Shown here piece after piece: positions 648-18,200 of a DNA stretch of 20,629 nt. The position numbers were made by a program, and so were the translations under genes. The stretch is from positions 1 through 20,629 of IMG/VR virus record IMGVR_UViG_3300020477_000795. One strand, written 5' to 3'. This stretch comes from a virus. Within the stretch, counting starts at the first letter, position 1; each line of letters opens with the position of its first letter. Below the pieces are notes generated by a model. The model was not told the origin of the DNA and searched no databases. It saw nothing but the letters and a program-made list of their open reading frames with translations.

Positions 648-1749
648 GTATAAAGTAACACACATACCAAGTCTAGTTGATAACCCTATTATAAATAGTA
701 CCGGGTTTCTAGATGCATTAAACAATTATAGATGGACTATTGATGGGTTTTTAGACTTGTATTCAATCGCCTCTATACATAAAACAAACAAACAGTTACA
801 TGATCCAGTAACTCATCAAGTAGATTTCTTTAAAACATTAAATTCCGGTGATCTACCTATAAAAGAGAACAGAAAAGGTGTGACAAATGACAATGTATTG
901 AATAGTTTGGACATCCGTACGGATGATTTCTATACTAAATTTCAAGAAATTGCTGCAGATCTTCCGGAGAATTTTGGTTTAGATGATATATGGGAGACTG
1001 ATACTGAATTTCTTGTATATTGGATTGAAAAATACCGTACTTCACATGATTTAGTAAAAGAGCTGTTGCATAATGCAGATGTTCTTCCTAAGGAAACTGA
1101 AGACGGTGTATATAATACCGAAAATGTATACTTTAATGACTTTAGTGAGAGCATGTTCTCGTTAAAAACTACTACTTTATATGACCCTCCTCGTGAGGCT
1201 ATACCTACATGGGACATAAAGAGTACGTTTTTTAAGGAAATGGGAGGAAAGCATACAGTTCCTAATCAATACACTGGTACTTCTGTGTATAATGTACATA
1301 ATGATACGCGAGAGTTAGCATTTATTATGAGCAGAAAGACGTCCGCAGTGTTCAGAAATAATATGAAGAATGTTTTAGAGTGTGTTTCATCAGATTCTCG
1401 TATAGAAGACGAAGAAACTGGTCAATTATTACTAAAAAAGGTACTAATTACCGACTCAAAACAGGCACACGGGTGTAATTTAGTACATGATGGCTATCAT
1501 ATTGGTCGCGCGAAGCAAAATGCTGAACCGATTTCACGAATTGTCCACGAAACTCTGTCAAATATGGCTTATGTTCTTAGTTATATGGACAAAAATTTAA
1601 GAAATAACCAGAAAACCTGGGGTAAAATTAACGTTCAGTCAAGTATTGAAGATGTTATTGTAAGTGTTGACTTACTACATGACCGATTAGAGTATAGTAA
1701 GAAAGAAGAACCGGTTAGTATAAAGACAAATCAGTCTGTTTTAGGTTGA
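640..1749 (+). CDS. Unrecognised protein, probable virion/tail component
   Basis: Taking the ATG at 640 gives 369 residues. An in-frame ATG at 622 lies further inside the hub gene. The 640 start is preferred because it forms an ATGAGTAA overlap with the hub stop, a pattern repeated at 4998 and 10949, which suggests translational coupling. No family is recognised. The protein is soluble, with no signal peptide or membrane segment. It is acidic in the first half and then contains a probable β-rich segment (about residues 180-290). A helical C-terminal third holds an H-G-C and H-D-G-Y-H-I-G cluster near residues 280-290. Position directly after the hub gene suggests a structural or assembly role, which is inference. 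The last 19 bases overlap the convergent gene on the minus strand. Confidence 0.8.
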   Translation: MSKYKVTHIPSLVDNPIINSTGFLDALNNYRWTIDGFLDLYSIASIHKTNKQLHDPVTHQVDFFKTLNSGDLPIKENRKGVTNDNVLNSLDIRTDDFYTKFQEIAADLPENFGLDDIWETDTEFLVYWIEKYRTSHDLVKELLHNADVLPKETEDGVYNTENVYFNDFSESMFSLKTTTLYDPPREAIPTWDIKSTFFKEMGGKHTVPNQYTGTSVYNVHNDTRELAFIMSRKTSAVFRNNMKNVLECVSSDSRIEDEETGQLLLKKVLITDSKQAHGCNLVHDGYHIGRAKQNAEPISRIVHETLSNMAYVLSYMDKNLRNNQKTWGKINVQSSIEDVIVSVDLLHDRLEYSKKEEPVSIKTNQSVLG

Positions 1750-2216
1750 TTTTCTTCTTTTTCCCCATCTTCTAGTTCAATTACATCAGAATTTTGGATT
1801 AAATGAGACAAAACCTCTTGTCTGGTCAGAGCTATCTTATTATTTTGTTCATTATCCTGTAATTCTCTTTTAGACTCAATGTCCATCTGCTTAAGCTTGG
1901 TAGATGTTGTCCCTCTTTTGTCTTGAACAAGGATTTTGCTTAGAGTATCTATACTCGATGTGGTGGCACGTAGTAGTTCCGCTAATGATCCTACATCATC
2001 TGCTTCAGGAGCGGATTCTACGTAAGATTTTACGGTGTCTATCATGTCCATGCTTTGATTAATAAGCTGTCCGGTCCTATTGAGAATAAATTTTTCCAAA
2101 TCTTCCGGTTTAAGCTCAAACTCCTCATGTTTTTGAGCTTTCTTTACATTATTATTGTTTTCTTTAAGCTGTTCAATAAGATCATTGACATCTTCTGTTA
2201 AATCATCGTCAGGCAT
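1731..2216 (-). CDS. Small acidic helical protein, possibly gp16-like terminase small subunit
   Basis: The protein has 161 residues with an acidic N-terminus (MPDDDLTED) and a Lys/Asn-rich stretch. The central region (about 36-105) is predicted helical and spans LNRTGQLINQSMDMI through LAELLRATTSSIDTLSKILVQDKR. A charged Gln/Glu-rich C-terminus follows. The central pattern of two helices, with an 'a few residues, then L.ELL.a...sID.L.KIL..qK' layout, resembles the gp16 small terminase family of T4-like phages. Those recognise DNA and stimulate the large terminase ATPase during packaging. The resemblance is structural and from memory, and no diagnostic residue proves it, so a generic coiled-coil or assembly protein remains possible. 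It is transcribed opposite to both neighbours, from its own promoter-like box, and converges on the upstream gene. Confidence 0.8.
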   Translation of the reverse strand: MPDDDLTEDVNDLIEQLKENNNNVKKAQKHEEFELKPEDLEKFILNRTGQLINQSMDMIDTVKSYVESAPEADDVGSLAELLRATTSSIDTLSKILVQDKRGTTSTKLKQMDIESKRELQDNEQNNKIALTRQEVLSHLIQNSDVIELEDGEKEENQPKTD

Positions 2217-2221
2217 AAAAA

Positions 2222-2229
2222 TACTTATT
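2222..2229 (-). promoter_or_regulatory. Late-promoter-like box AATAAGTA, 5 nt before the start at 2216
   Basis: Read on the minus strand, the bases before the ATG are AATAAGTA then TTTTT. The box matches T4-type late promoters (NATAAATA) except for G at position six. The same octamer class sits exactly 5 bases before the ATGs at 4526 and 14645. No Shine-Dalgarno sequence is visible. Promoter function is inferred from recurrence and family knowledge. Confidence 0.5.
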
Positions 2230-2261
2230 ACTAATAGTTGAATATTAAAGATCTGATAGTA

Positions 2262-2278
2262 TAATCATATTATGATTA
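2262..2278. promoter_or_regulatory. Operator-like dyad over the start codon and -10 region
   Basis: TAATCATA, one central T, then TATGATTA form a perfect 8-bp inverted repeat. It spans the 3' part of a TATAAT hexamer (2260-2265) and the ATG of the small ORF at 2272. A TTGAAT (2238-2243) lies 16 bases before TATAAT, so the pair could be a host-type promoter. Its transcript would start at about the ATG. A protein bound to the dyad would block both -10 and start. Inverted repeats this size do occur by chance in AT-rich DNA, so the location is the main argument. Confidence 0.35.
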
Positions 2279-2433
2279 CAGTAAATATCACCGGTCATGG
2301 TAATTTTGTTATACATTCAGAGAAACTAGACGAGTTATTACTATGGCTACGTAATAATTCAATGTCAGTAGAGTCAAATACTAGACCCTTACGTGACGGC
2401 CAAACATTATTAAACGAAAAAAATGAATGTTAG
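2272..2433 (+). CDS. Small 53-aa hypothetical protein upstream of dUTPase
   Basis: This open frame begins at the ATG at 2272 and ends at the TAG at 2431. It encodes 53 residues starting MITVNITGHG. A short β-hairpin-like start is followed by an amphipathic helix (EKLDELLLWLRNNS, about residues 17-30) and a polar tail. It fills most of what would otherwise be a 206-base gap between the divergent minus-strand gene and the dUTPase. Its end overlaps the dUTPase start by 11 bases, a coupling arrangement typical of phage operons. Codon use resembles the neighbours. No family is recognised. The alternative is a leader region that is not translated; the continuous frame and the overlap favour a gene. 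Confidence 0.6.
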   Translation: MITVNITGHGNFVIHSEKLDELLLWLRNNSMSVESNTRPLRDGQTLLNEKNEC

Positions 2434-2998
2434 TATTAAAGTAAAGAAGACTCATCCGGATGCTGTCCTTCCGGTGGCTAATAATAAAGATTTAGGTACA
2501 GGTGATACAGGATATGACCTTACCGCGATAGAACCACAGCACATTCAAGCCGGAAAGTCTAAAGTTGTATCAGTTGGCCTGACATTAGCCTATATTACAC
2601 CTGGATACTGGTTTAGAATTGAACCTCGTAGCGGTCTAGGATTTAAAAACAGTGTTCAGCCGCATTTAGGAGTGATTGACAATGGGTATAGAGGTGATTT
2701 AGGAGTTAAATTGTATAATTTCCATGAGAAGACAAGTATTTCAGTGAAAAAAGGGGATAAAATCGCGCAGCTTGTAGTTTACCCACTAATTCAGCCCGTC
2801 TTTGAGTTTGCAGATGAAGTCTCCGAGTCAGCCCGGGGAAATAAAGGGTTCGGGTCATCAGATGAACCGGTTTCGGCAGGTAGTAATGATGACGTCCATT
2901 GGGAATATTCCTCTTATACTGGTATTGTCACTGATATTAATGAAACTGTCGCGGTTCCTAAGTTAGATCAGGGTGACCCTTTATATAAAGAAGTGTAA
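2423..2998 (+). CDS. dut: dUTP pyrophosphatase (trimeric dUTPase) with C-terminal extension
   Basis: The enzyme hydrolyses dUTP to dUMP and pyrophosphate, keeping uracil out of DNA and feeding dTMP synthesis. All five motifs of the homotrimeric family are present in order. Motif 1 is GDTGYDLTA (27-35) and motif 2 is PRSGLGFK (68-75). Motif 3 is GVIDNGYRGDLGVKLYN (83-99), with the catalytic Asp at 86. Motif 4 is GDKIAQLVVYP (111-121) and motif 5 is RGNKGFGSSD (138-147), the P-loop-like lid. Most family members end shortly after motif 5. This one continues for about 44 acidic, aromatic-containing residues (148-191) with no recognised motif. The start at 2423 overlaps the preceding small ORF, and the stop shares one base with the clamp-loader ATG (TAATG), so the three genes are probably co-translated. 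Confidence 0.95.
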   Translation: MNVSIKVKKTHPDAVLPVANNKDLGTGDTGYDLTAIEPQHIQAGKSKVVSVGLTLAYITPGYWFRIEPRSGLGFKNSVQPHLGVIDNGYRGDLGVKLYNFHEKTSISVKKGDKIAQLVVYPLIQPVFEFADEVSESARGNKGFGSSDEPVSAGSNDDVHWEYSSYTGIVTDINETVAVPKLDQGDPLYKEV

Positions 2999-3915
2999 TG
3001 TTTGATGATTTATGGGTAGAAAAGTACAGACCTTCAAAATTAGAAGATATTGTACTAAACGACACTAATCGTGAACTTATAGCGAAGTTTTCTGATAAAG
3101 ATAGTATACCAAACCTATTATTTGCCGGCAAGCCGGGCATAGGCAAGACGTCTTTAGCTAAGATAATAGTAAAAGACGTATTAAAGTGTCAGTATCTATA
3201 TATTAATGCTAGTGACGAAAATGGTATTGATACAGTCCGCACTAAGATTACTAACTTTAGTAAGGTTCGAAGTGTAGACGGTAATATAAAGATCATAATC
3301 CTCGATGAAGTTGATGGTCTTACTCTAGATGCCCAACGTGCTCTAAGAAATACCATGGAGGAATATAGTCAGTTTGTAAGATTTATACTAACAGCGAACT
3401 TTCATCACAAAGTAATACCAGCTCTGCAGAGCCGGTGTCAGAATTTTGACTTGACACCAGATTTAGACGGGTTTTATAGTCGTTGTGAACACATTTTACG
3501 CTGTGAAAGCGTTGAATTTGAACAGGGTGATTATATCCGTCAGTTATTGAAAGGATATTATCCTGATCTGCGACGAGCTATTAACGAACTTCAAAAGATA
3601 ACTGTTGAAAATAGATTAGTAGAGGATAAACAGCAGGGCAATGAAGACTTTATTAATAAAATTTTGGCATTAATACAAGCAGGTAAGGTATTAGAGCTTA
3701 GAAAGTATATAATTAAAAAAGAATCCGACTTTTCCGGTGATTATCAATTTCTATTAAGAGATTTATTTAACTGCATTGATACATCTAATGTACAATATGA
3801 TAAAAAGCGTGATTCTCTTTTATGTGTAAGCGAACACCTATATCGGTCCGCATTTGTAATTGATCAAGAGATTAATTTTTACTCTTGTCTGGTGAATCTA
3901 AGCAAGTTGGCTTAG
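2998..3915 (+). CDS. 44: Sliding-clamp loader ATPase subunit (T4 gp44 / RFC small-subunit-like)
   Basis: This is a AAA+ ATPase of 305 residues, close to the size of T4 gp44 (319). The RFC-box N-terminus WVEKYRP (6-12) is followed by Walker A GKPGIGKTS (44-52), Walker B IIILDEVD (99-106), sensor 1 LTAN (131-134), the SRC motif with its arginine finger (145-147) and a sensor-2-like DLRRAIN (190-196). The C-terminal third is the helical collar domain. In T4 four gp44 subunits and one gp62 load the gp45 clamp for DNA synthesis and for activating late transcription. Neither partner lies in this window. The ATG overlaps the dUTPase stop by one base. The last 22 bases contribute to a hairpin shared with the convergent gene. 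Confidence 0.94.
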   Translation: MFDDLWVEKYRPSKLEDIVLNDTNRELIAKFSDKDSIPNLLFAGKPGIGKTSLAKIIVKDVLKCQYLYINASDENGIDTVRTKITNFSKVRSVDGNIKIIILDEVDGLTLDAQRALRNTMEEYSQFVRFILTANFHHKVIPALQSRCQNFDLTPDLDGFYSRCEHILRCESVEFEQGDYIRQLLKGYYPDLRRAINELQKITVENRLVEDKQQGNEDFINKILALIQAGKVLELRKYIIKKESDFSGDYQFLLRDLFNCIDTSNVQYDKKRDSLLCVSEHLYRSAFVIDQEINFYSCLVNLSKLA

Positions 3916-3919
3916 ATTC
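3894..3919. terminator. Bidirectional terminator-like hairpin over two convergent stop codons
   Basis: GAATCTAAGC (3894-3903), a 6-base loop and GCTTAGATTC (3910-3919) form a perfect 10-bp stem. The stop codons of the clamp-loader gene (TAG, 3913-3915) and the opposing gene (TAA complement, 3912-3914) both lie in the right arm. There is no strong T-run on either side, so intrinsic termination may be weak. It could instead protect 3' ends of the two converging messages. Confidence 0.6.
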
Positions 3920-4472
3920 CTTGCATATATACTTTAGTATTGAAATTATCCGTTGGAGCTAGTGTGTGATCTTGATCTACATTAGTATTTTTTAAGCTCT
4001 TATCACCTTCTTTCACTCCTGTTTGTTTATAAGGTGACATATGTGATTCTTCTTCCTCTTTGAGCTCTTCTGGCTTACCAGTTATATCGTTTTTCCTTCT
4101 CTGACTGTCAGGAATCGGTGGTAAGTTAGTACCGAATTCAATATACTCAAGCATATCTGCTGGCACAGTAACAAAATCTGTAAACATCCCGGGGGCCTTT
4201 TCGCGAACAATATCGCAATAATAAGCATCGACTTGCTCGTCTTGCTGTACACTACCAGAAACAGCCGGTCTTAAAGCTTTAACAGAGCTAATACGAATAT
4301 TCTCATCTGTCTCACTAAATTCTTTTAACTTCTGCAAAAGATTGTCTTGCTGATTTTTAGCCCAAGGAGAAGTAAGAGCATCGCTTTTAAGTTTTACTAA
4401 ATCACCGGTTAGGAATCCACCGCCTTGAAATCTGGTGAATACTCCTTCTAATAATGTATCAAATTTGTTCAT
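3912..4472 (-). CDS. 186-aa protein of unknown function next to gp25
   Basis: The N-terminal two-thirds (about 1-130) looks like a compact domain. It contains FQGGGFLTGDLVKLKSDAL (15-33), IRISSVKALRP (59-69), a DIVREKAPGMF segment (87-97), and a terminal GTNLPPIPDSQRRKND (114-129) after the VTVP stretch. The 'GGGFL.GD.VK' start suggests a small β-barrel. The last 55 residues are charged and low in complexity (Glu/Lys/Asn), probably disordered. I recall similar small proteins near baseplate genes of marine T4-like phages, but no function is known to me. It is a lone minus-strand gene. It converges on the clamp loader with a 4-base overlap and diverges from gp25 across 53 bases that hold promoter-like boxes for both directions. 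Confidence 0.85.
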   Translation of the reverse strand: MNKFDTLLEGVFTRFQGGGFLTGDLVKLKSDALTSPWAKNQQDNLLQKLKEFSETDENIRISSVKALRPAVSGSVQQDEQVDAYYCDIVREKAPGMFTDFVTVPADMLEYIEFGTNLPPIPDSQRRKNDITGKPEELKEEEESHMSPYKQTGVKEGDKSLKNTNVDQDHTLAPTDNFNTKVYMQGI

Positions 4473-4478
4473 TTTAAT

Positions 4479-4486
4479 TATTTATA
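4479..4486 (-). promoter_or_regulatory. TATAAATA late-promoter box, 6 nt before the start at 4472
   Basis: On the minus strand the sequence before the start reads TATAAATA, then ATTAAA, then ATG. It is an exact match to the T4 late-promoter consensus. TATAAATA also turns up inside genes here (for example 690-697 and 18467-18474), so the match alone is weak. Its place in a 53-base divergent gap, opposite another box, adds weight. No ribosome binding site is visible between box and start. Confidence 0.5.
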
Positions 4487-4512
4487 GAATAAAACCTACA
4501 TTTAATACTTTC

Positions 4513-4520
4513 AATAAGTA
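4513..4520 (+). promoter_or_regulatory. AATAAGTA box, 5 nt before the gp25-like start
   Basis: AATAAGTA followed by ATAAT and the ATG at 4526 has the same spacing as the boxes before 2216 and 14645. It would drive the whole wedge operon from gp25 onward. The transcript start expected for a T4-type late promoter falls at or very near the ATG. No Shine-Dalgarno sequence is seen. Confidence 0.5.
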
Positions 4521-4525
4521 ATAAT

Positions 4526-5005
4526 ATGTCAAGCATTAACTTATCTTCATTATCCTCCAGAAGAATTAGCAAATATACATATAAAGATGTAGATCTAGAT
4601 ATAAAAACAGAAACAAATGTTCTGCCGCGTGGTTTATATCGAGAAGAAAACATTACTGATATTAAAGCCAGCCTAGACGAAGCTGCTATTAAAAATTCTT
4701 TAAGTAATATCTTTAATACTGCTCCTGGACAGAAGCTCTTAGCCCCAAACTTTGGTTTAGATTTAAAATATTACTTGTTCGATCCGCTTTCAGAGGATAT
4801 AGGGCAAAATATAGGAGAGACAATTATACAAGGGTTAAAACAGTGGGAACCTCGCGTAATAGTCAATAGAGTTCATGTATTTACCGATTATGATCAAAAT
4901 CAATATGTTATAACCTTACATATCGCAATTCCGACATTAAATATTTCTGAAGCACAGTATACAGGAGCTTTAAATAACGAAGGATTCACTTTTAATAATG
5001 AGTAG
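4526..5005 (+). CDS. 25: Baseplate wedge protein, gp25 / GPW family
   Basis: The 159-residue protein is slightly longer than T4 gp25 (132). The GPW/gp25 core is clear. A helix at DEAAIKNSLSNIFNT (51-65) leads into PGQKLLAPNFG, then LDLKYYLFDPLSE (78-90). A second helix ending at KQWEPRV (105-111) holds the conserved EPR core motif. Terminal β-strands follow (112-140). In T4 gp25 joins gp6 and gp53 in the wedge core and nucleates sheath polymerisation. About 45 N-terminal residues before the core, rich in Ser and Arg, are an extension. The start at 4526 follows the box described above. The end overlaps the gp6-like start by 8 bases (ATGAGTAG). Confidence 0.93.
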   Translation: MSSINLSSLSSRRISKYTYKDVDLDIKTETNVLPRGLYREENITDIKASLDEAAIKNSLSNIFNTAPGQKLLAPNFGLDLKYYLFDPLSEDIGQNIGETIIQGLKQWEPRVIVNRVHVFTDYDQNQYVITLHIAIPTLNISEAQYTGALNNEGFTFNNE

Positions 5006-6797
5006 TACATTTACAGACTTTAATTTAGATAGTAACTCGTATGTTGCTTTTGATGCGACAAGTTTACGCGACTTAATATTACAAAGACTTAAAGACCAAG
5101 GTGTATTCACTGACCAGGTATTTGAAGGAAGCAATCTATCATCGATGATAGATATTATTGCTTATTCTTATCACGTACTATTATATTATCTAAACAAAAC
5201 ATCTAGTGAATCAATGTTTTCTGATGCGGTTATATATGAAAATATGAATCGGATTGTTAAATTGTTAAATTATAAACCTATAGGTTACAGAACATCTATA
5301 GTCACATTTCAGAGTACCGCCAATAATGACTTACCGGTTGGTTCGTATACCATTCCACGGTATTCCTTTGTAGACGTTGACGGTATTTTTTATACCTTAA
5401 AAGAAGATATAGCATTTAGCAAGTATAATACAGGTTCTGTGCAGCTCACCACTGATGATAGTAAGTATTTGCTCTATCAAGGCAAATATCAAGAGTATCC
5501 GTCATATACTGCAGTAGGTAATGACTTTGAAACAGTAACACTTGCTTTAGATAAAGGTATATTAGTAGACCATCAAAGCATTGACGTGTATGTATACTCT
5601 TCAACTACTGGGAAATATTCTCAATGGAAAGAGACACAGTCGTTGTATTTACAATCCCCGGCGGATCAAAGCTATGAAATTCGTTTAAATGAAAATTACC
5701 GATATGAAATTAGATTCGGGAACGATATAAGCGGTGCGCGACTCAATCCCGGTGATGTAGTATGTATATATTATATTAAAAGTGACGGAGGTTCGGGTAT
5801 TATAGGTAGTAACCGATTAAAAGATAAAAAATTCACATTATATACAACAAATAAATTTGTCAATATAAAAAATGATATAAAAGATGAAATGACAAGCTAC
5901 CTAACGCTTAGTAATATATCAACTATTGAGTTAGACAACGATACGACATCAACCGATCCTCAGACATACGAAACAGTCGGCGAAATCCGGAGTAATGCCC
6001 CGGCATATTTTTCACATCAGAATAGATTGATAACATCATCGGACTTTACACAATATGTTAAAACATCATTTAGCCATATTGTAAATGATGCTATAGCTGT
6101 TGACAATACGACATATATTAGCCAGCATATTAAGTATCTAGTTAAAGATTTATCATTAGACAGACCGCTGTTAGAGTCCAGACTTTTATCAAATCAAGTA
6201 TCTTTCGCGAACTCAACCACTTTTAATAATGTTTATATATATGTAGTACCTAGAGTCCTCGCGAAATCATCGATAAATAAGCAGTCCAATTTTCTGAGTA
6301 TCGCTCAAAAAGAATTAATAAAGAATAGCTTCGAAGATATTAAAGGTATAGGGTTAGAGCCAGTATTTATCGATCCTGTTTATATGGCTGTAGATTTCTG
6401 CGCTACGTCCGGACCTGATAACCTAACACCGGATATGGCATCAACAACTAGGTTACATATTATTAAATCAATTAATACTCCTCGTGATAAAGAACAATTA
6501 AAACATGAGGTCAGTAATGTAATTTTACAATACTTTAAGCACACTAATATGACTTTAGGACAGACGGTAAATGTTGTTCAATTATATAATGATATAGTGA
6601 GCATCCCGGGAGTGCAGAATATAAAAACTGTCAGAGGTGACATAGAAGTAACAGGTGTTAGTATATTGGTATGGAACCCGGTTTATAATAACGACATTGC
6701 AGTCTATAATCAGAATATAACACTACCATATTTTAAATATCCATATTTATATGATTCTGAAAATATAGTATCTAGAATAGATGTAATTGATCAGTGA
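4998..6797 (+). CDS. 6: Baseplate wedge protein, gp6 / baseplate J-like
   Basis: The protein has 599 residues against 660 in T4 gp6. The N-terminal helical region (about 20-95) contains LRDLILQRLKDQGVFTD and a long helix through IIAYSYHVLLYYLNK, followed by MNRIVKLLNYKPIGYRTS, all typical of gp6. Around residues 234-262 is the J-like FGNDISGARLNPGDVVCIYYI segment. Near residue 330 comes SNAPAYFSHQNRLITSSDF, the conserved 'AP....qNR.vt..Df' motif. The C-terminus (about 440-590) is an alternating β/α domain. Gp6 dimers form the iris-like ring that links six wedges around the hub. It is translationally coupled to gp25 by the 8-base overlap and is followed one base after its stop by the next ATG. 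Confidence 0.9.
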   Translation: MSSTFTDFNLDSNSYVAFDATSLRDLILQRLKDQGVFTDQVFEGSNLSSMIDIIAYSYHVLLYYLNKTSSESMFSDAVIYENMNRIVKLLNYKPIGYRTSIVTFQSTANNDLPVGSYTIPRYSFVDVDGIFYTLKEDIAFSKYNTGSVQLTTDDSKYLLYQGKYQEYPSYTAVGNDFETVTLALDKGILVDHQSIDVYVYSSTTGKYSQWKETQSLYLQSPADQSYEIRLNENYRYEIRFGNDISGARLNPGDVVCIYYIKSDGGSGIIGSNRLKDKKFTLYTTNKFVNIKNDIKDEMTSYLTLSNISTIELDNDTTSTDPQTYETVGEIRSNAPAYFSHQNRLITSSDFTQYVKTSFSHIVNDAIAVDNTTYISQHIKYLVKDLSLDRPLLESRLLSNQVSFANSTTFNNVYIYVVPRVLAKSSINKQSNFLSIAQKELIKNSFEDIKGIGLEPVFIDPVYMAVDFCATSGPDNLTPDMASTTRLHIIKSINTPRDKEQLKHEVSNVILQYFKHTNMTLGQTVNVVQLYNDIVSIPGVQNIKTVRGDIEVTGVSILVWNPVYNNDIAVYNQNITLPYFKYPYLYDSENIVSRIDVIDQ

Positions 6798-6798
6798 A

Positions 6799-9700
6799 AT
6801 GAGTTCTGGTAGAACCACATATTATTTACCTTTTGATATAGAAATTCTTAAAGATAATGCTAGGATTGGCGATGGAGCATATTTAAACCGCGGTAAGAAT
6901 AATGCATATGTTGCAAGAAATAAACATAATGTGTATTGCTTGCCGAATATATCTTACAAATTTAGTATTGATGACGCCTTAGCACATGCTAGAGATGAAT
7001 ACTATAGTGGTGATAATGCTAGATTTGAAAAGTATGTGGACGATCATGAAGATTTGCAGGAGAAATGGTCTACTAATGCATTATGGCCCGGGCCAAATAA
7101 TATATCTGACCAGTCCGTACAGGACATATCAAAGTCACAGTTCGGACGCGAGCATTGGAAGATGTATGGTGTGTATGAATCATCTAGAGTTTTAGCAAAA
7201 AGTACATTTAATAGTATATTTTCAAAAGATTATATAGTGTGGGACTTCGGTGACGGTACTACAACTCAAGACTTCCGGCCAGTGCATACATATAATGAGC
7301 CCGGTGAGTATGAGATTACAGTTACTGTATTTGATACAGAAGGTCAGCCTGTAAGAAATCCATATAGTTATACTTTAACTATACATAATTTCTGCGCAGA
7401 TGAAATTGCATGGGATTCGGAAGACTTCCGGGAATTTGGTATCCAGTATGTGTATACGGGCATGTTCTCGAAGCCATTGACTGTAAAGAGAGTTAATAGT
7501 TGGCAAGACCCGGATAAGTATAGTACGTTAACACTATATGCTAGTGGTTCGGATTCTATACCAGCTGACCCGAGTAGTTATATAACCAACAAACATGCTC
7601 ATTTTCAAAAACTTTGGAGATTTGTTGATAATGTTATTGATCCTGTACCGATTAATAAAATCCATATACCAGGCCAACAATTATACGGAGATATGAAATT
7701 CGCTCCAATAAGCGGTGACGAAAATAATCCCGTTAGTATTGAACTTGATATATTTACACCTAAAGACCTATCTCAAGTAAGTAGAGATACGGTATATCTA
7801 GGAATCAGTGGTCAAACCGATATTTTCTATATAGATGATACAGCTAAAAATTATCTTTCCAGAGATACACAACCAGTATTTTTATTTATAAGCCCACAAC
7901 AATTTGATAGTATTAATGTATTACAAGATTCATATGAGACAGATGTCAGTGTATTACCAGCAAAGGTATATTACGCACCGGCAACAGATATACAATTAAC
8001 AACTAACGGTATAGAGTCGTTTAAACTTCAAAAAAACAAATATGTTGATAGTATCAATACACTAAATATATCAACAATAGCTCTCTCAGGAGCAACCCGG
8101 GCCATGACTTCTGTTAATTCTGTAACTGATGAAACCATTCAAACTATTAATAATAAGTCGTTAATACTAAAATCAGATTATAAGCAACTGTCTTTATCTC
8201 AATCCGCATCGAAATCTAGTGATCTAGCTCCATTTGAGGTTAGAGTGTTTATTGAAGACTATATACCGGTTATAGACCCTGATTCAGGATTAGAGACCGG
8301 TGAGTATAAAACCGTATTCCCTTCGCTTGAGTTATCTGAAAGACAAATTGAGTTGCCTATAACTCAAGGCGCCGGGAATTTTATATTTATTCCTAAAGAA
8401 GAGACATCCCCGGACGCAAAACTCATCGCAGAAGCTCATGTAGTTGACCCTGTGTACTGTCCGACCGACACAGAGGTTATGTTTGTTATTAACCCGTTAA
8501 GCAATCAGGCTCACTTTATAAGCACACGTACTAATACAGGTGTTAATGTTTCAGAAGGAGCAGCAAAATATACCACTCTCGCTGATGGTACTTTATCTGG
8601 CCAGAACCTTCAAATTACAGATGATATGGAGGCATCTATTGTACAGCACACACTCCCACTATCAGCTCATGATCCCTTCCCAGTTTGTGTCGATCAATTA
8701 TCTAATATATATGTTGGAGACACTAGCCGAGACACAATTATAAAATTTGACAAAAATGGTAATGTACTCAATAATGAAGCATTGATTTATGTGTCTGAAC
8801 TGATATGTCAGTCTAATATTATTGAAAGTAAGTTCAATACTCCTGATGTTGAAGTACTAGGTATGCTGTATCAAGCAGATGAGTCGTTTGATGACTCTGA
8901 TTGGTCTTCCGGGTTAGATCTTAATGCTAGCGATTCGACATGCTCATCGTTTAGAACTAGTGTTTCTGAACAAAATGCACTAGCGCCTTCTAGTATTGCC
9001 TGTGACGGAACCGGTGATATATGGGTAACGTTAATAGATGGTATATTCACTGTTAAGATCCATTATGATCAATCTTCTGAAAATTATCAAGTAACCGCAA
9101 TCGCAACTCCTGTAATTAGTGGAAGTGACACGGTATCTGATAACGGTCTATCCGTTCTACTAAAACAGACGGCGACTGGAGAGCGTCTATATATGCCGAC
9201 TCAAGTAGAGACAGATAAAAATAATAATATTTGGGTGTCATATACCAATCCAGAAAAAACAATGCTGGTCAAATATGATACTAATGGTGTTGAATTAACT
9301 AGGCTTGAGTTTGACGACGGAACTTCATTAGACAGTCTATTAGTTGATACCGGGAATGATTTATGGGTGACCAACTCGACATGCCTGAGAGAAGACAATA
9401 AAACACACGGTAGTATAATTAGGGTATCGGTTGACAATGCCGGGAAAGCATATATTGTCAAAGACGTACACGTATATAACAAGGAAAATGGAACTCCCGG
9501 GTATTTTGATAAACCGTCACAGATGATATTTGATATGGAAGACAATCTATATATTGCTCACGCCGGTAATGAATTGATAAGAATGAATCCCGCGACCTAT
9601 AAAGCTAATCATATAATGAATGTCGGTGGTAAGTGGTCTAATGAATACGGGTTTTCTAAAGCCGGAGGAGAGGTACAAGCAATCGAAGGGCTGTCATGTG

Positions 9701-10956
9701 ATTCAGATAATAAGATATTAGTTGTAAACAATAAAGACCGGAAGTTATATGTTATAGACCCGGAAAAAGACCCGGTGGAGATATACTATACACATGATCT
9801 AAGACAGTATAGTAAAGATGCTACTGAAAAGTGGGGAGTAGATATGGATATAAAAGACATATATAGTGAGCAGGAACTACGTCAATCCGTTTCGAATAAT
9901 TTTTATTACTTGAAATATAAAGAACTTACAAAAGACGGATTTGAGACTCTCATGTCACCCGGTGATTGGACCGGTATAAGATGGACACAGAAATACAGCA
10001 AGTCTGGTATGGGAAAGCGAATCCTCCGGGCTGAAACGCCTATACATGTCCAATCTGTGAATTATAATGATGTTCAAAAGATAAATGAAGACTTTGATGC
10101 AACTCAGAATACTGTCAATATTACATTACAAGACAATATTAATAAAAACACAAATTTAATGCATTGGTTTTTTCAAAGTATACTAGGAGATGTAGATAGT
10201 CCTCCAGAAACTATCGGAAAGACAGTATATGAAAAGATCTCTAACTTTGTTGGCAATAATAGCGATATTGATACATGCGATGTAGATTCGTTATATTCGA
10301 TGGCAACCGAACTAGGATTTGATATGAAGCAGTATCTTTATACATATCCCGGATCCATAAAACGACTAATAGATCTTTTTTCTATAAACTATAGCCGGCT
10401 AGCCGGTACAAGAAATCAAACAGACATTCAGTTTACAAAAAACGGATATGCAAATAATTTTAATCATGGTAGGAATTTAGGAGATATTATAAATCATACT
10501 TGCGCGCCGAACCCGGATAGTTCTTTAGATCCGTATATAGTAAAAGTCGGTACACGTCTTGTAGCAAAAGAACTATATAACGGGACATATACATTAATTG
10601 AACCGATGGCAATCCTAGGATCAGAATTTGATGATAATTATTCTGTGAAGCATGGAGGTCTGGTTGAATATCCATTGTGTAGCTATAGTAGAGATTGGGG
10701 CTGGGGCCTGTCTCATCCAAGCGACGAGCCGGATAATAAGGTGTTTTTATATTACGATTTCTATCAGTATAAAAATAATAACGAATACACAGAGATATTA
10801 GAACAGATGACTGGTGTTATTGATTGGGACAATCCATTAACACAATTAGACGAAAAAGTAACTGATAAAAGCGAGTGGGTAAAACCAGGAGGTATTATTG
10901 ACAGTATAATTGACCGGAAGTTAAGAAAAGGAATGGATTTATTTATAAATGAATGA
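6799..10956 (+). CDS. Giant baseplate wedge protein with PKD domain and β-propeller (gp7 position)
   Basis: The ATG at 6799 comes one base after the gp6 stop. A TTG at 6787 would add four residues but is less likely. The product is 1385 residues; T4 gp7, encoded at this place, has 1032. Residues about 135-205 hold a PKD domain (WDFGDGT near 147, then HTY and GEYEITVTVFD). Residues about 620-1000 hold six repeats of the form 'D..n.iwV...' (near 629, 731, 800, 845, 905 and 960), which I read as a six-bladed NHL/SMP-30-like propeller. The C-terminal part (about 1030-1385) is mixed, with FETLMSPGDWTGIRW, a helical SNFVGNNSDIDTC region and a PGSIKRLIDLFSINYSRL segment that looks conserved. A wedge role is inferred from gene order. 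The propeller and PKD suggest surface or protein-protein contacts. Confidence 0.85.
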   Translation: MSSGRTTYYLPFDIEILKDNARIGDGAYLNRGKNNAYVARNKHNVYCLPNISYKFSIDDALAHARDEYYSGDNARFEKYVDDHEDLQEKWSTNALWPGPNNISDQSVQDISKSQFGREHWKMYGVYESSRVLAKSTFNSIFSKDYIVWDFGDGTTTQDFRPVHTYNEPGEYEITVTVFDTEGQPVRNPYSYTLTIHNFCADEIAWDSEDFREFGIQYVYTGMFSKPLTVKRVNSWQDPDKYSTLTLYASGSDSIPADPSSYITNKHAHFQKLWRFVDNVIDPVPINKIHIPGQQLYGDMKFAPISGDENNPVSIELDIFTPKDLSQVSRDTVYLGISGQTDIFYIDDTAKNYLSRDTQPVFLFISPQQFDSINVLQDSYETDVSVLPAKVYYAPATDIQLTTNGIESFKLQKNKYVDSINTLNISTIALSGATRAMTSVNSVTDETIQTINNKSLILKSDYKQLSLSQSASKSSDLAPFEVRVFIEDYIPVIDPDSGLETGEYKTVFPSLELSERQIELPITQGAGNFIFIPKEETSPDAKLIAEAHVVDPVYCPTDTEVMFVINPLSNQAHFISTRTNTGVNVSEGAAKYTTLADGTLSGQNLQITDDMEASIVQHTLPLSAHDPFPVCVDQLSNIYVGDTSRDTIIKFDKNGNVLNNEALIYVSELICQSNIIESKFNTPDVEVLGMLYQADESFDDSDWSSGLDLNASDSTCSSFRTSVSEQNALAPSSIACDGTGDIWVTLIDGIFTVKIHYDQSSENYQVTAIATPVISGSDTVSDNGLSVLLKQTATGERLYMPTQVETDKNNNIWVSYTNPEKTMLVKYDTNGVELTRLEFDDGTSLDSLLVDTGNDLWVTNSTCLREDNKTHGSIIRVSVDNAGKAYIVKDVHVYNKENGTPGYFDKPSQMIFDMEDNLYIAHAGNELIRMNPATYKANHIMNVGGKWSNEYGFSKAGGEVQAIEGLSCDSDNKILVVNNKDRKLYVIDPEKDPVEIYYTHDLRQYSKDATEKWGVDMDIKDIYSEQELRQSVSNNFYYLKYKELTKDGFETLMSPGDWTGIRWTQKYSKSGMGKRILRAETPIHVQSVNYNDVQKINEDFDATQNTVNITLQDNINKNTNLMHWFFQSILGDVDSPPETIGKTVYEKISNFVGNNSDIDTCDVDSLYSMATELGFDMKQYLYTYPGSIKRLIDLFSINYSRLAGTRNQTDIQFTKNGYANNFNHGRNLGDIINHTCAPNPDSSLDPYIVKVGTRLVAKELYNGTYTLIEPMAILGSEFDDNYSVKHGGLVEYPLCSYSRDWGWGLSHPSDEPDNKVFLYYDFYQYKNNNEYTEILEQMTGVIDWDNPLTQLDEKVTDKSEWVKPGGIIDSIIDRKLRKGMDLFINE

Positions 10957-13900
10957 TTCACAATATAAAGATATAGCTTTGCAAGACAGTATTGTAACTC
11001 AATCTGATATATCAACAGTTTTTGCATTAGATAAAGAAGAACCATTTACATTTAAGAGATGGATTAAGCAAGCTGGTATATCTAATGCTATTATATCTGA
11101 TATAAAGCCTATATACGAGCAATATCTAGCCAAGTGGAATAGTGTTAAGACTAAAATAGATAGCGAGAAAAACAAAAATACTATTGAAATATATACTTTA
11201 TTCTTAAGAGAATTAGAGTTGGATTTGACAGTAGATGAAAAGAGATATATTGAAAATATTGATTATTCTAATAAAGAGGAAGTAGAGACTACACTTGCCT
11301 TCTTTTCTAGCAAGATAAAATCGATTGCATTATATTTTGCAGATAAGAGAGACCGGATAAAATTTCAAACAGTTAAGAATAATATAAAAGGAACAAAAAC
11401 CGGGCTTCACAAAGAAGTATATAATAAAGTTCTAGAGTTAATTTTTGATATTGGATACACAATAGATAATGAGATATCAGAGGAAGACAAAAATGATATA
11501 ATTAGAGAATTACATATTTCTATTGAAGAGTTATATGATATAGATTCCGGTTATTTTGAAGATGGTACTCCTTCCCATCTGGATGATGACGTTTCTAATA
11601 CTATAGTAAAGAAGTTAGAATATGATCCATACCTATTTATAGATTATGACACAGCGCAAGAAAACTTATTGAATAGCTATGGGCTGACGTTAGTGTCTGA
11701 CGGGGATTTAGATATTCTGACCGGTAATGAACAGGTTCTTTCACCGGTATTTGATATACCGTTAGATAATATTAGTCTCTTACCGGAACATGAATTTATA
11801 TTATATGATAAGCAGACATTAAATCTAGAAAATATAAAAGAGCTTATTAAGAATACTACGTCTGCAAAGACTATGTACCTAAGCTCCGGAGATTCTGGAG
11901 CTTCGTATGTTACGGATGTACTATTTGACAGTAGTGACAATTTAGCCAATATGCTAAATAAAAAGTTCCCAAATTTAAATGTGTTGCCTAGTAGTGAAGC
12001 TAAGACATTGCAAGAGCTGGGTGGATTATTTAAGCCGTCCGGGTTAGGAATGCTAAATTATTATAGTTATTCTCCTAGACCTAATATATTAACACAACAC
12101 ATTAAGCCTAATACATTATACGTATATCCGGATCCGGAGCAGTATAGTAGTAACACACTGGATATACCGCTAGATTATGATGAAGATGCATCAAATGTGA
12201 AAGACAACAGTTTAGAAGGCAATATAGTAGGTGAAATTTCCGGAATTTCACACATGCCAAAATTTTATAATTATCAATCAGATATCCAGACAAATATATA
12301 TTCACAGTTTGGTATTTCTAGAAATGATGATAATTTTGACTTCTGGTCCGGGGACAATAAAGACATATGGGGTAATGCTGACATATACCCGCTAGACGTC
12401 GAAAATATATACACTTTAGATGAAAAACAAGACGATCTGTTAGTTAATAAAGGACATACATATAAATGGCGGACTGATTCTTATGGTAATGAATATGCTA
12501 TAATTAAGAAGATTCATCCGTTCGAGGCGTTAACTGAGGAAGATTTTTCCGATCCGGAGAGTTTTACTAGATGTACCATCCTAGACGGATCGGTTTTCAA
12601 AGACGTCGGACAAAATCCACCAGATTATGGTGATGCAGTTATTAATGATGATGAAAATCATAATTTATTTGATTATAATAATTTTGACTATGTAGTTCTT
12701 AGAAACGGAGAATCATTTCTATATTTATCATGTGACTTCCCAGGTATATTTGCTGAACAAAGTAATCAGCGAAGAGCCCGGACCACGGAAGGACTACAAG
12801 GAAACAAGAAATATTGTACGACATTAGATGGTTACATATTTATGTACGATGGTCATCCATTTCCGTATGACAGTTATAAATTTTTCTCTAAAAATGTACA
12901 AGATGAATATTTCTACAACAAAGATACACTGTTTAAGGATTATGATGAATGGGACGGTGGAGGGTTTGATATGGAGTGTGTCCCAGTCCCTCGAGATGAA
13001 TTATTCTATAAAGTTGAAGACATAGTATTATATGATAATGAAATATATGAATATAATACTACAGAATTAGAATTACCAGATACATTTACATCTATACCAT
13101 TAACAGAACAAGCAGAGACACCAGGTGAACTAGTTGTTCGGAATGTTACTAGTTCGAGTATAGGCTCCTTTGAAACAGCGGGCAATCGTTTGTTTGAAAG
13201 GTATAGTACGGATATACAAAATGAAATATCGGAGGAATTATTAGACTTTGATGTTATTGAAAATGTTTTATTATTAAAGACAGCTAAATCATTTATTATT
13301 GACAGAGTTTCATACGATTTTGACAAAAATATTATATCTACCAACAATAGCCCGGGTCATATCCCTAGAATATCAGATATATATGATGAGTATATCATGT
13401 CTGAGCATTTTTATAATGAAAAACTAAGACATATAATTGTATGCTGCGTGTATACCAACGACAATAGTAGTAATATAGGAATAGACATGTACACTATAGA
13501 CGTAGATAACTTCACCTTATCAAAATCATCTCCGTCTGTTACACCGCTTAATATACATGATATTAAAAACCTTAGTATTTCATTTAATGAAATTACATAC
13601 AAGTACTATATAACATTCCTATGCCATTCCGCGGAGAATTTTTGCATCGGTCAGTTTATATGTATAGATTTATTATTTAATACAATAGATTTGGACATAT
13701 ATAAAACAAACTACACTGCTATTAGTACCCCGGAACAAGTAAAAAAATTCGCTCATCGTAAGATTACAGACGATTATGCTGAAAACGGTCCAGATGATCC
13801 TGCAGGTATTCCAATTACAGTATTGTTTAATCAACCAGTAAACACACTTACATTAGATATAACAGATATACTACCTGGGAAAATCGTTGATAGAATAGAA

Positions 13901-14590
13901 ATTGACTGGAATGTAGATGATGATACTCCTTTAGAAATAATAAAGAGGTCACCGGTTGTAAATTATGAAAAGTTTGATAAAGCAATAGGTACTGATTTAA
14001 GAGATCCGCGGTCCTTTAAAATAGAACATGTGTACAACACAACATCGCCACCACCTGGTGTAGTTGGTAGTGTATCCGACATAGACGTAGATGGTGCTGT
14101 GATTACATGTAATATTAAAGCTTATGTCCTAGGACAGCTAGCAAATACGTATGTCATAAAAATAATTCAGCACCCATATGATATCATGACATCATTTGAG
14201 AGTGTAGATATCTGTAAGACAGTATCGTATTCAGATGTATATGATAACGAGAACACGTTAGTAACATTATGCACACAAACACCTAGTTATGTTACATCGT
14301 TCATCCTTCGAAAAGACAGTATGCCTAGAGAAGTAATAACCTATAATTCAAACATGGTTGCAGGTGACGAATTACAGATGGAGAGCTCAATTGACATGTC
14401 TGGAATTTCTACTACCGGTTCTACTCCGGAAGAGCCTAGCAGCTCAACTATTTCAAATAATGCTAGTTCACAAAATGCGACTGCTCCGGTAATTTCACCG
14501 GTTGCTTCACCAGATACGTCTCCACCGGTTGCACCTCCACCGGTTTCCTCACCAGGTACACCACCACCGTCTGCTCCACCAAGTTACTGA
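10949..14590 (+). CDS. Large baseplate/tail structural protein with proline-rich tail
   Basis: The protein has 1213 residues. The start overlaps the previous stop as ATGAATGA (8 bases). Residues about 25-215 are strongly helical and charged, including KRWIKQAGISNAIISDI and repeated Glu/Lys-rich helices. A long Asp- and Tyr-rich β region follows to about 950. Residues about 965-1080 show a divergent PKD-like layout: DRIEIDWNVDDDTP, then FKIEHVYNTT, then a strand pair ending TYVIKIIQHP. The last 60 or so residues are Ser/Pro/Ala-rich and probably disordered. No family is recognised for the whole protein. In T4 the gp8/gp10 wedge and periphery genes occupy this position, but length and sequence give no direct support for either. 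A structural role is inferred from context. Confidence 0.85.
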   Translation: MNDSQYKDIALQDSIVTQSDISTVFALDKEEPFTFKRWIKQAGISNAIISDIKPIYEQYLAKWNSVKTKIDSEKNKNTIEIYTLFLRELELDLTVDEKRYIENIDYSNKEEVETTLAFFSSKIKSIALYFADKRDRIKFQTVKNNIKGTKTGLHKEVYNKVLELIFDIGYTIDNEISEEDKNDIIRELHISIEELYDIDSGYFEDGTPSHLDDDVSNTIVKKLEYDPYLFIDYDTAQENLLNSYGLTLVSDGDLDILTGNEQVLSPVFDIPLDNISLLPEHEFILYDKQTLNLENIKELIKNTTSAKTMYLSSGDSGASYVTDVLFDSSDNLANMLNKKFPNLNVLPSSEAKTLQELGGLFKPSGLGMLNYYSYSPRPNILTQHIKPNTLYVYPDPEQYSSNTLDIPLDYDEDASNVKDNSLEGNIVGEISGISHMPKFYNYQSDIQTNIYSQFGISRNDDNFDFWSGDNKDIWGNADIYPLDVENIYTLDEKQDDLLVNKGHTYKWRTDSYGNEYAIIKKIHPFEALTEEDFSDPESFTRCTILDGSVFKDVGQNPPDYGDAVINDDENHNLFDYNNFDYVVLRNGESFLYLSCDFPGIFAEQSNQRRARTTEGLQGNKKYCTTLDGYIFMYDGHPFPYDSYKFFSKNVQDEYFYNKDTLFKDYDEWDGGGFDMECVPVPRDELFYKVEDIVLYDNEIYEYNTTELELPDTFTSIPLTEQAETPGELVVRNVTSSSIGSFETAGNRLFERYSTDIQNEISEELLDFDVIENVLLLKTAKSFIIDRVSYDFDKNIISTNNSPGHIPRISDIYDEYIMSEHFYNEKLRHIIVCCVYTNDNSSNIGIDMYTIDVDNFTLSKSSPSVTPLNIHDIKNLSISFNEITYKYYITFLCHSAENFCIGQFICIDLLFNTIDLDIYKTNYTAISTPEQVKKFAHRKITDDYAENGPDDPAGIPITVLFNQPVNTLTLDITDILPGKIVDRIEIDWNVDDDTPLEIIKRSPVVNYEKFDKAIGTDLRDPRSFKIEHVYNTTSPPPGVVGSVSDIDVDGAVITCNIKAYVLGQLANTYVIKIIQHPYDIMTSFESVDICKTVSYSDVYDNENTLVTLCTQTPSYVTSFILRKDSMPREVITYNSNMVAGDELQMESSIDMSGISTTGSTPEEPSSSTISNNASSQNATAPVISPVASPDTSPPVAPPPVSSPGTPPPSAPPSY
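14480..14587 (+). repeat. Proline/serine-rich low-complexity tail with repeated CACCGGTT
   Basis: This stretch encodes the last 36 residues of the 1213-aa protein, almost all Pro, Ser, Ala, Thr and Val. At DNA level CACCGGTT recurs three times (within tcaccggttgc, ccaccggttgc, ccaccggtttc). It resembles a flexible linker but ends the protein, so it may tether it to a partner. Confidence 0.7.
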
Positions 14591-14631
14591 AAGAACTAAG
14601 CTAACAAATGTTGGAGAGTAATATACCCTAT

Positions 14632-14639
14632 TATAAGTA
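14632..14639 (+). promoter_or_regulatory. TATAAGTA box, 5 nt before the start at 14645
   Basis: In the 54-base gap after the 1213-aa gene, TATAAGTA is followed by TTTCT and the ATG. The octamer and 5-base spacing repeat those before 2216 and 4526. The GGAG at about 14612 is over 25 bases from the ATG, too far for a Shine-Dalgarno. It probably starts a transcript for the fibre genes. Confidence 0.5.
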
Positions 14640-14644
14640 TTTCT

Positions 14645-15232
14645 ATGGCCGGAAGTTCGAGATCTATTAATAGAATTGGTATAACAGATTTACCAGAAGC
14701 AGAAAACATAAAGCAAGCAGACTATCTGATATTACAATCAGATGGTATATCGTCAACGATACAAGTCAAAAATATACAGTTAAACAGAAACAATCTATCA
14801 TTTTACAATGAGATTGTTGACTTAAATGTCATGACAGCAAATCATGAGTTAAGCATTGAGAATTTTTCTACTAGTATATCACATCTGTCCGCGGAGGTGG
14901 ATAATGTTAGTACAGATGTAAAGAATATAAAGCAGTGGAAAGATAATGACAGCACATTTATTGGAAATTTATCTGATGGTTTATCAATTGACAAAGGACA
15001 GAAGACTATAAATGTTGGTACCGCATGGAAGTTTAATGTTAATGCTCAACCAGTAGGTGATACTATTGAAGATATTAAGAGTATGTCTACCAAGTTAGAG
15101 AATAGAATCAAAGAAATCGAGTCATTAAAGAGTGAAGTTACGGAACTTGAAGCTCGTATAAAAGATTTAGAAGACCATATACATTTCATCGCATCTGGAT
15201 CGGATCATACAAAGGCTCCTTCTAGTCACTAA
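14645..15232 (+). CDS. Small coiled-coil fibre/adaptor protein
   Basis: The protein has 195 residues. The N-terminus INRIGITDLPEAENIKQADYLILQS (8-32) has the 'I.dLP.a..i...DyLilq' pattern common at the start of phage fibre and baseplate-peripheral proteins that attach to the tail. Residues about 65-100 have hydrophobic heptads (LSIENFSTSISHLSAEVDNV), and 140-181 form a clear coiled coil (IEDIKSMSTKLENRIKEIESL onward, then LEARIKDLEDHIHFI). Between them lies a short β segment (108-137). This architecture suggests a trimer acting as a connector for the giant protein that follows, comparable in size to T4 gp11 (219 aa), though the sequence does not identify it as such. It begins a new transcript unit and is followed by a 15-base gap. 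Confidence 0.82.
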   Translation: MAGSSRSINRIGITDLPEAENIKQADYLILQSDGISSTIQVKNIQLNRNNLSFYNEIVDLNVMTANHELSIENFSTSISHLSAEVDNVSTDVKNIKQWKDNDSTFIGNLSDGLSIDKGQKTINVGTAWKFNVNAQPVGDTIEDIKSMSTKLENRIKEIESLKSEVTELEARIKDLEDHIHFIASGSDHTKAPSSH

Positions 15233-15247
15233 GAGTAAATGTAATTT

Positions 15248-18200
15248 ATGAGTGTAATTCTACTTACAGATTCAGGTTTAAGCAAGAATTGGTTTCCTTT
15301 AAAGCCAGAATATACACATGACCAGAACGCATCTCTACAACAATACACCTTGCAAGGTAGTGATAAATTAAAATTGTATTTAGACAGTAATCATGCAAAT
15401 GTTGAAGACTTTAAAATTAATAATTACAGTGCACTGACCCTGACTGGGAAGAAGCGATTACAAGATGTTATTAGGATTAATACACCACGCGACAAGACTA
15501 AAGAAACATTTACAACAACAATACAAGGCAATATTCAACAAGATCCTAGATATATTAGGATTATAATTACAGAGAACGACCGGTTACCTGATCCCGCGAG
15601 CTGTGAACTGGATCCTCCGCAGACGTTCTTATCACAAGGAGACAGGGTAAATGAATATTATTTTGAAGTAAGGCTCCGGGATAATGTCATGCAAATTTAT
15701 CATGAGCATCATGATCAATTATTTGCACTGTCTAATAGTTCTGAAGCACCTGTATTTAAGAATGTTGAAGGACTGTCAAAAAAACAGTTAGAAGAATTTG
15801 ATTTCGAGTATTATCTAGATAGAGACACTAAGAGTTTGATACTTATAACAGCTGAATCGAAACCTAGAGTACTGTCTATTGGTCTACAAGAAGACGGTTC
15901 TATAGGCATGGTATATAAGTCTAGTATAAATTTGGATGACGCTGATATCTTGCTACAAGTAAATTATAACAAGACAACTTCTGATACATTAGATGTCTCC
16001 GGAAAGACTAACAATTGGGTAGTATATAAAGACAAATTTGATATTAATCATGTTAATATCTCTTCTGAAAAAAGCCTTCTAGATGTTCATAATAATGTTT
16101 TGATTAATAGTGAATATTATAATAATGATTCAAATATAATACCGATAAATATAACTCCCTTAAAAAACCAGCTATCTATTACAGAAAATAATATCACAAA
16201 TAATGTATATCGATCCCGGCTAGGGAGCACACGTAATTATACGAAAATCTTTGCCGGTACTAATCAATTACGAGGAACAGATAATGTATATATCGGATAT
16301 GATACATACTTAAATAATATAGAGCTCAACCCTGGGAAACTTACATATTTTCATATGCCACAAAATATGTATCCGGTAAAGAAGCTCAATATTAATGACA
16401 GCGGTCTGATTTCTTCTGGTGCTATTGGTGGAGATGTCCCCTTAAGAGCTGATAAAGTCTTTAAGAAACGCAGCGGTTATAAAAACCACACAGCATACGG
16501 TTCAGCGACCGATGAACAATCCGGGCAATGGTTATGTACTTGGCTATATAAAGACCCGTACACTAATAAATGTATATGGTTAGATAGATATTTTAATAGT
16601 AATAAAACAACTTCTGCATTCGCTTTTAGAGCGAAACCGAAAAATAGAATTATTACATATAATACACAATATCAGTCAAGGAGTGCAAAAACCGGTGCTG
16701 ATGAACTGGTGTATGACAAGGCAAGTGATCTATGTTTCGAATCTGGTGTTCTATATGCCTATTACAGAATGGGGTTAAATGATATAGATAAGATAAAGGA
16801 GAATATATTAACTTCTGCTGTTATTATAAATCCTAAAAAGATTAAAGATATCAATAATGTTAATATAAACACCGATATACTACCGGGTGATATATTAACG
16901 TTTTCTAGTACTGTCCAAGACTATAGCATTGCATATATACCAAAGAACAAAGACCGGAAATACAATATTACAATTTCAGCTGTGTTTGAAAGTCAAGCTT
17001 GGGACAAACCATTCGGGGGTACAATTCTAGGTAACTATGTAGATCGTGGAATTAGTATTTTAAATAAGAGGATTATATCCCCTATTCAATTACTTCGGAA
17101 CAATACAAATATACTTGTATATAATAATAATTTTGAACTGATTAATAAAATTGATGTCGGTACTAGCAACTTTAAAATTGCTGAAACTGAATACTATCAA
17201 ATGTTATCAGTGGTTGTAGAGATCGAAATGGATAACAGCCTAGGCGAGAAAACTAGAGTATGGTATTTACGGCGATATAGTACTCTCTTACCAGATGTAT
17301 TAGATGAAAAGATATTAAAGAAAGGAGTAACCGGGCCTTCTCTGGATAAAATAGATGTTAAGAGCACTCCGGAGCATATACATATATTAACCGATAGTGA
17401 TAATGGTGTGTTCGAAAAAATAGACACGACAACATTAGATATTGAATCATTGTCCGGGACATACATGGGCGATGTTAATAAATTAGCTGAAACACATGAC
17501 TATGAGATTAATAATATAGTACCTATTGATGATAAAGCGTATTTGTTCTCCTCCGGGAGAGAAGGACACGATACTTTGATTCGTGTTGACGGTAACAAGA
17601 AAGTATGGTTTTTAAATTTTACAAAAACTAAAATATATAGATATGACCCAGAACTAGATAAATTCTTTAGCGAAGTTCATGTTACAAATACAAGAAATAC
17701 CTTGTTTCAAGTAACTCTTCCTGGGGAAAAGATAGTCGATTTTAAATTTGATAAACATAATCAAATTTGGGTTCTATATAAAAATAAAGGATCATATTTC
17801 TGTAGTAGTGTACATGTAGACGACCGCCAGGTCATAACGACTATTGATTTAGAAGAGACACAAGAAACCGAACCAAAAGAAAGCTGGGTATTCGACGATT
17901 CTATAGGCTGGGTAGACTCTCCAGTGACCGGGAAATCAGACGATGGTGTATGGATAACACAGCATACAGAATGGGGTTGGTTGTTCAAGTCAAATGAAAA
18001 AAACTGGTATCAACATCAAGACATTGATGATTGGTTGTATATAATAGATATAGATGATAGAAATAATGTATACATGGATTTTGTTTTTGATACTAATGAA
18101 GACAGTGTTTATTTTATTTTCGATAAAACCGCGACTAAAAATAAACAAGATGTATTTAAAAGATCTGTAGTCTTTAGCCAGAGGTTCCAAAAATGGACAA

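Follow-up and report, generated by a model that had tools for sequence, protein, structure and literature searches.

Predicted leaderless early and late messages from promoters set close to the start codon in an aquatic branch of the T4 superfamily

Late transcription in phage T4 is a textbook system, whose messages carry leaders with ribosome sites. The viral record IMGVR_UViG_3300020477_000795, analysed here over its entire 20,629 bases (the window), raises the question of whether late genes of this type can also be expressed without such leaders, as four eight-base boxes of the form WATAARTA stand only 5 or 6 nucleotides (nt) before ATG codons. Our answer is that these boxes are very probably T4 late promoters of the gp55 type, starting transcription on or near the ATG, and that the early operons are built likewise, so that both temporal classes of message would be leaderless. 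The evidence throughout is sequence pattern and conservation, and, since the window is a 20.6-kb fragment, genome-wide tests were made on its relatives.

The four boxes, reported in a first-pass annotation before the starts at 2216 (-), 4472 (-), 4526 (+) and 14645 (+), were recovered exactly there, with gaps of 5, 6, 5 and 5 nt (Table 1), and a Shine-Dalgarno site is missing from all four starts, as had been stated. The annotation was also right that a single further WATAAGTA exists, inside a gene at 15840-15847 (-), which makes four copies in the window; it omitted nine copies of WATAAATA, of which all but one lie away from starts. Overall, WATAARTA is not over-represented (13 found, 17.5 expected), and the signal is the position of the box, not its frequency. 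When a start is taken as well defined, or safe, if an in-frame stop lies at most 60 nt away, a box at 5-6 nt precedes 4 of 11 such starts in the window and none of 78 internal in-frame ATGs (Fisher p = 1.4e-4), and when the five intergenic window starts were simulated 20,000 times, no run gave more than two boxes.

The relatives comprise 80 loci collected from viral contigs by gp44 and five by gp25, together with long stretches (50-209 kb) of eight related records (G001-G008). Plotting box-to-start distances across them, as the first-pass annotation had proposed, gave not a flat distribution but a strong peak at 5-6 nt. In the first locus set, 116 of 487 WATAARTA copies have an ATG that opens an open reading frame (ORF) at exactly 5 or 6 nt, most loci being represented; across the clade, a box stands at this distance before 128 of 1,033 well-defined starts versus 11 of 3,641 internal ATGs (p ~1e-72). 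The gaps between the TAARTA core and safe starts have a hard lower edge, with no case at 4 nt, 134 at 5 nt, 61 at 6 nt, 35 at 7 nt, 24 at 8 nt and 29 at 9 nt, and a background of at most 9 at each farther position. The logo of the 128 boxes reads ATAA[A/G]TA, with position -13 loose. Among operon heads, 65 of 363 carry a late box, versus 1.3 in shuffles, and Shine-Dalgarno sites are at shuffle level (25 of 363 versus 23.7); the T4 operon heads gave no late box and 63 Shine-Dalgarno sites in 98 (10.2 in shuffles). Operon-internal genes of the clade show a weak Shine-Dalgarno excess at -16 to -9.

That this pattern arises by chance, or as an artefact of A/T-rich intergenic DNA and of how starts are picked, has a negligible probability. 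The lack of over-representation of WATAARTA would fit it; the shuffle, internal-ATG and reversed-pattern controls reject it, the pattern is absent in T4, syn9, KVP40 and RM378, and footprints of the boxes are present in orthologs. Whole related records gave 44 occurrences of the pattern versus 9 of its reversed control, 25 versus 5, 20 versus 1 and 12 versus 0, among others. We also considered a general trait of the T4 superfamily and rejected it, as the pattern count shows no clear excess over the control in T4, syn9, KVP40, RM378, P-HM1, PA5oct, Atu_ph07, Phosso, Mel-JY01 and an Ochrobactrum phage, and is weak in Melnitz (6 versus 3). No well-defined start in T4, syn9 or RM378 has a box at 5-6 nt, and the late boxes of T4 and syn9 lie 12-32 nt upstream of the ATG.

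Conservation follows the same geometry. In the closest relatives, the gaps of 5 nt (orfC), 6 nt (orfF) and 5 nt (gp25) are retained while the flanks diverge, and the 5-nt gap of orfJ is retained in the sole relative that has this gene (L115). Close relatives keep gene-specific versions of the box, ATAAGTA at 5 nt for gp25 (7 of the 7 closest orthologous loci) and ATAAATA at 6 nt for orfF, which suggests that promoter strength may be tuned gene by gene. Remoter relatives have weaker boxes or gaps of 7-9 nt. Ortholog alignments of gp25 and orfF begin at residue 1, and their start codons are credible for this reason. Also of note, 13 late-type boxes in G001-G008 and the window are followed, after 5-6 nt, by a GTG that opens a frame of 100 amino acids (aa) or more; these are possibly leaderless GTG starts.

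The early genes share this layout. Clade genes that lack the late box show TTGA at about -34 and TATAAT at about -12, counted from the ATG, a TTGA-N16/17-TATAAT pattern ending about 6 nt before the start codon; the gap from TATAAT to ATG peaks at 6 nt (28 cases), with 14 cases each at 5 and 7 nt, and no TATAAT at 5-8 nt before ATG was found in T4 and syn9. The window itself holds such a sigma70-type promoter at 2238-2265 (ATG 2272), back to back with the late box of orfC and overlooked in the first-pass annotation. It precedes a 53-aa ORF whose orthologs are 40-80% identical, most aligning from residue 1, and the pattern recurs at the same place in all 14 of them. A PHROG tally of 72 late-box genes versus 67 early-promoter genes separates structural families (tail tube, sheath, portal, head protease, baseplate, endolysin) from a set comprising UvsX, single-strand binding protein, helicase, primase, dUTPase, QueD/E and the gp55 late sigma factor. 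The proposal of leaderless late starts is thus supported, and it was too narrow, as early genes with sigma70-type promoters are placed alike, pointing to what would be a genome-wide style of expression.

These two gene classes also bear on whether the box is a promoter at all. It might instead be an A/T-rich element of translation initiation in a host that makes no use of Shine-Dalgarno sites, as the A/T-rich clade genomes and their operon heads devoid of such sites would allow. We regard this as very unlikely: the octamer is already known from this superfamily as a late promoter, and the clade has gp55; structural and replication genes bear different signals, and that of the replication genes includes a -35 element, at a constant spacing of 16-17 bp, which would be unexpected for a ribosome signal; nor would a ribosome signal explain the hard edge at 5 nt. 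Alternatively, the late promoters could be real with a shifted start, or the main 5' ends could come from promoters further upstream, giving messages with leaders after all. A second box at 32 nt in the orfF orthologs of three loci (L005, L006 and L008) and possible read-through from upstream operons speak for this; however, a leader would expose Shine-Dalgarno sites, of which the operon heads have no excess, two promoter classes independently converge on a spacing that puts +1 at the ATG, and the divergent pairs 2216/2272 and 4472/4526 leave scant room for an additional promoter, so that we consider such leaders unlikely.

We therefore favor leaderless early and late messages, a reading supported by the spacing, the conservation, the gene classes, the presence of gp55 and the operon heads without Shine-Dalgarno sites. 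The T4 late box begins at -13 (PMC2988020), and a 5-nt gap would consequently place +1 on the A of the ATG; at 4 nt the RNA would lose part of the AUG that it must retain, which would account for the empty class. Late transcription would start at the start codon or at most about 4 nt upstream of it, if the boxes are used during infection as we envision, and late operons (baseplate, sheath, tube, portal, head protease) would begin as leaderless mRNAs, the ribosomes binding a 5'-terminal AUG, presumably by 70S or AUG-dependent initiation. Early operons, including that of the late sigma gene, would be read from the sigma70-type promoters (TTGA, 16-17 bp, TATAAT), and as these too sit about 6 nt before the ATG, both temporal classes are predicted to be leaderless.

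A gp55-like late sigma factor, which the first-pass annotation had suggested looking for, is present in 7 of 10 related clade records by the PHROG profile phrog_234, including the closest, G008; the window fragment is too short to show it. A search with T4 gp55 found homologs in 5 of 5 large clade records (E ~1e-9), and the clade proteins (e.g. G001:C1:122373-122822 (-)) keep the sigma-2 core. The predicted promoter class of the clade is, in this respect, T4-like.

Several observations weigh against the picture drawn here. The clade gp55 lacks the C-terminal clamp-binding motif of T4, and the gp45 and gp33 profiles (phrog_223 and phrog_254), which do match T4, syn9 and HTVC008M, are unmatched in G001-G005, where these proteins may be too diverged; the late machinery is therefore not identical to that of T4, and late transcription in the clade may not be clamp-coupled. 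A strict late box is found on only 6-24% of the safe starts of each long relative, and start codons were assigned from open frames, with conserved N-termini as their support.

A further reading is that the phages alter the host ribosome, for instance through a bS21 of their own, so that leaderless viral messages outcompete those of the host, with a late sigma factor free of T4-style clamp tethering. We hold this to be rather improbable; if true, leaderless late promoters would be a takeover strategy that arose separately in the clade and in pelagiphages. The ribosomal protein bS21 is encoded by HTVC008M (L182), G002 (L183), G004 (L184) and G003 (L185) and is not found in T4 or syn9; a link between phage bS21 and translation independent of Shine-Dalgarno sites is possible. 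No phage-encoded IF3, which would bear on a phage-driven shift of IF2/IF3 of the phiYS40 type, was found. Among L094-L095, L123-L124 and L144, large arrays of 24-26 tRNAs occur in G001 and in G005, while G003 carries a single tRNA along with a tmRNA gene.

In trees of the gp20 portal, gp23 capsid, gp17 terminase and gp44 clamp loader, the clade forms, with good support, a branch of its own within the T4 superfamily, in which the window adjoins G008; the trees, which took in no Lake Pavin contigs, have RM378 as a very long branch. The clade resembles the Far-T4 phages (PMC4360716) and Flavobacteriales-linked relatives (PMC7198788, PMC13037479) in being an uncultured, aquatic, deep branch of the superfamily with Que genes. 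Published host predictions for Far-T4-like phages point to Bacteroidota/Flavobacteriales (PMC7198788, PMC13037479); the clade's early promoters, however, are sigma70-like, and the Bacteroidota-type TAnnTTTG was not seen among them. We found no promoter analysis in the Far-T4 paper (PMC4360716), and a scan of bacterial genomes for a relative, as a clue to the host, found none.

With T4 (PMC2988020) the clade has in common an eight-base box of the TATAAATA type, an A/T-rich stretch downstream, late structural genes and a gp55-family sigma factor. It differs in that its boxes often have G at position 6 and its gp55 has no clamp-binding tail, and whereas in T4 and syn9 at least 12 nt separate the box from the ATG downstream of it, and many starts have Shine-Dalgarno sites, the boxes of the clade lie at 5-6 nt, with none. 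The Pelagibacter phage HTVC008M has seven TATAAATAG-N4-ATG starts (gap 5 nt) on annotated, mostly late genes, and its relative Mosig a milder excess; unlike in the clade, most HTVC008M genes use Shine-Dalgarno sites. Since HTVC008M groups with cyanophage and yet has boxes at the ATG, the trait probably arose at least twice.

Leaderless late genes are not as unusual for a phage as the first-pass annotation held, because the middle and late mRNAs of the unrelated Thermus phage phiYS40 were shown experimentally to be leaderless (reviewed in PMC3594737). This large phage is the nearest precedent; it differs in phage and host lineage, and in the clade, which is known from sequence, the early genes too are predicted to be leaderless and the late sigma factor is of T4 type. 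In Deinococcus-Thermus, leaderless genes with a -10 element a few bp before the ATG and no ribosome site are common (PMC12340547); there the pattern is that of a cellular sigma70, whereas here it belongs to a phage and is joined by a second, late sigma class. What is new is the coupling of T4-type late transcription to leaderless mRNA: outside subscription journals and preprints, which our search did not cover, we found leaderless transcripts reported neither for any T4-type phage nor for the two temporal classes together.

Early and late genes without leaders throughout a broad, aquatic part of the T4 superfamily would tie promoter position directly to translation. The start codon would become predictable from the promoter, a simple rule by which transcription units and start codons could be located in uncultured phages and their genes assigned to a temporal class. 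Possible hosts would be narrowed to bacteria with ordinary sigma70 promoters and the ability to translate leaderless mRNA. This bears on how the genes of these viruses are found, expressed and tested, and HTVC008M on Pelagibacter offers a culturable test system.

Table 1. Promoter elements and genes at the boxed starts of the window
Feature	Position	Strand	Remarks
Late box AATAAGTA (T4-type)	2229..2222	-	Gap 5 nt to ATG 2216; 5 nt kept in close orthologs
orfC, 161 aa, late-box gene	1731..2216	-	No PHROG/Pfam match; homologs in 80 related loci/pieces
-35 element TTGAAT, early-type promoter	2238..2243	+	Pattern in 14/14 orthologs
-10 element TATAAT	2260..2265	+	Spacer 16; gap 6 nt to ATG 2272
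53-aa ORF, heads dUTPase-gp44 operon	2272..2433	+	Predicted leaderless
dUTPase	2423..2998	+	Operon-internal
gp44-like clamp loader	2998..3915	+	Operon-internal
Late box TATAAATA (T4-type)	4486..4479	-	Gap 6 nt to ATG 4472; 6 nt kept in close orthologs
orfF, 186 aa, late-box gene	3912..4472	-	No family match
Late box AATAAGTA (T4-type)	4513..4520	+	Gap 5 nt to ATG 4526
gp25 baseplate wedge, heads baseplate operon	4526..5005	+	
gp6-like baseplate wedge	4998..6797	+	Operon-internal; no box
Late box TATAAGTA (T4-type)	14632..14639	+	Gap 5 nt to ATG 14645; kept in L115
orfJ, 195 aa, coiled-coil protein of tail region	14645..15232	+	

The window codes for a T4-superfamily block with dUTPase, the gp44 clamp loader and the gp25 and gp6 baseplate proteins; its further products include a PKD-domain protein of 1,389 aa and large tail-region proteins. 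Near the ends of tail-region proteins, Thr-Pro repeats (TPTPTPT) are encoded at 19489-19731 and 20440-20560; these stretches stem from short tandem repeats and could vary in length.

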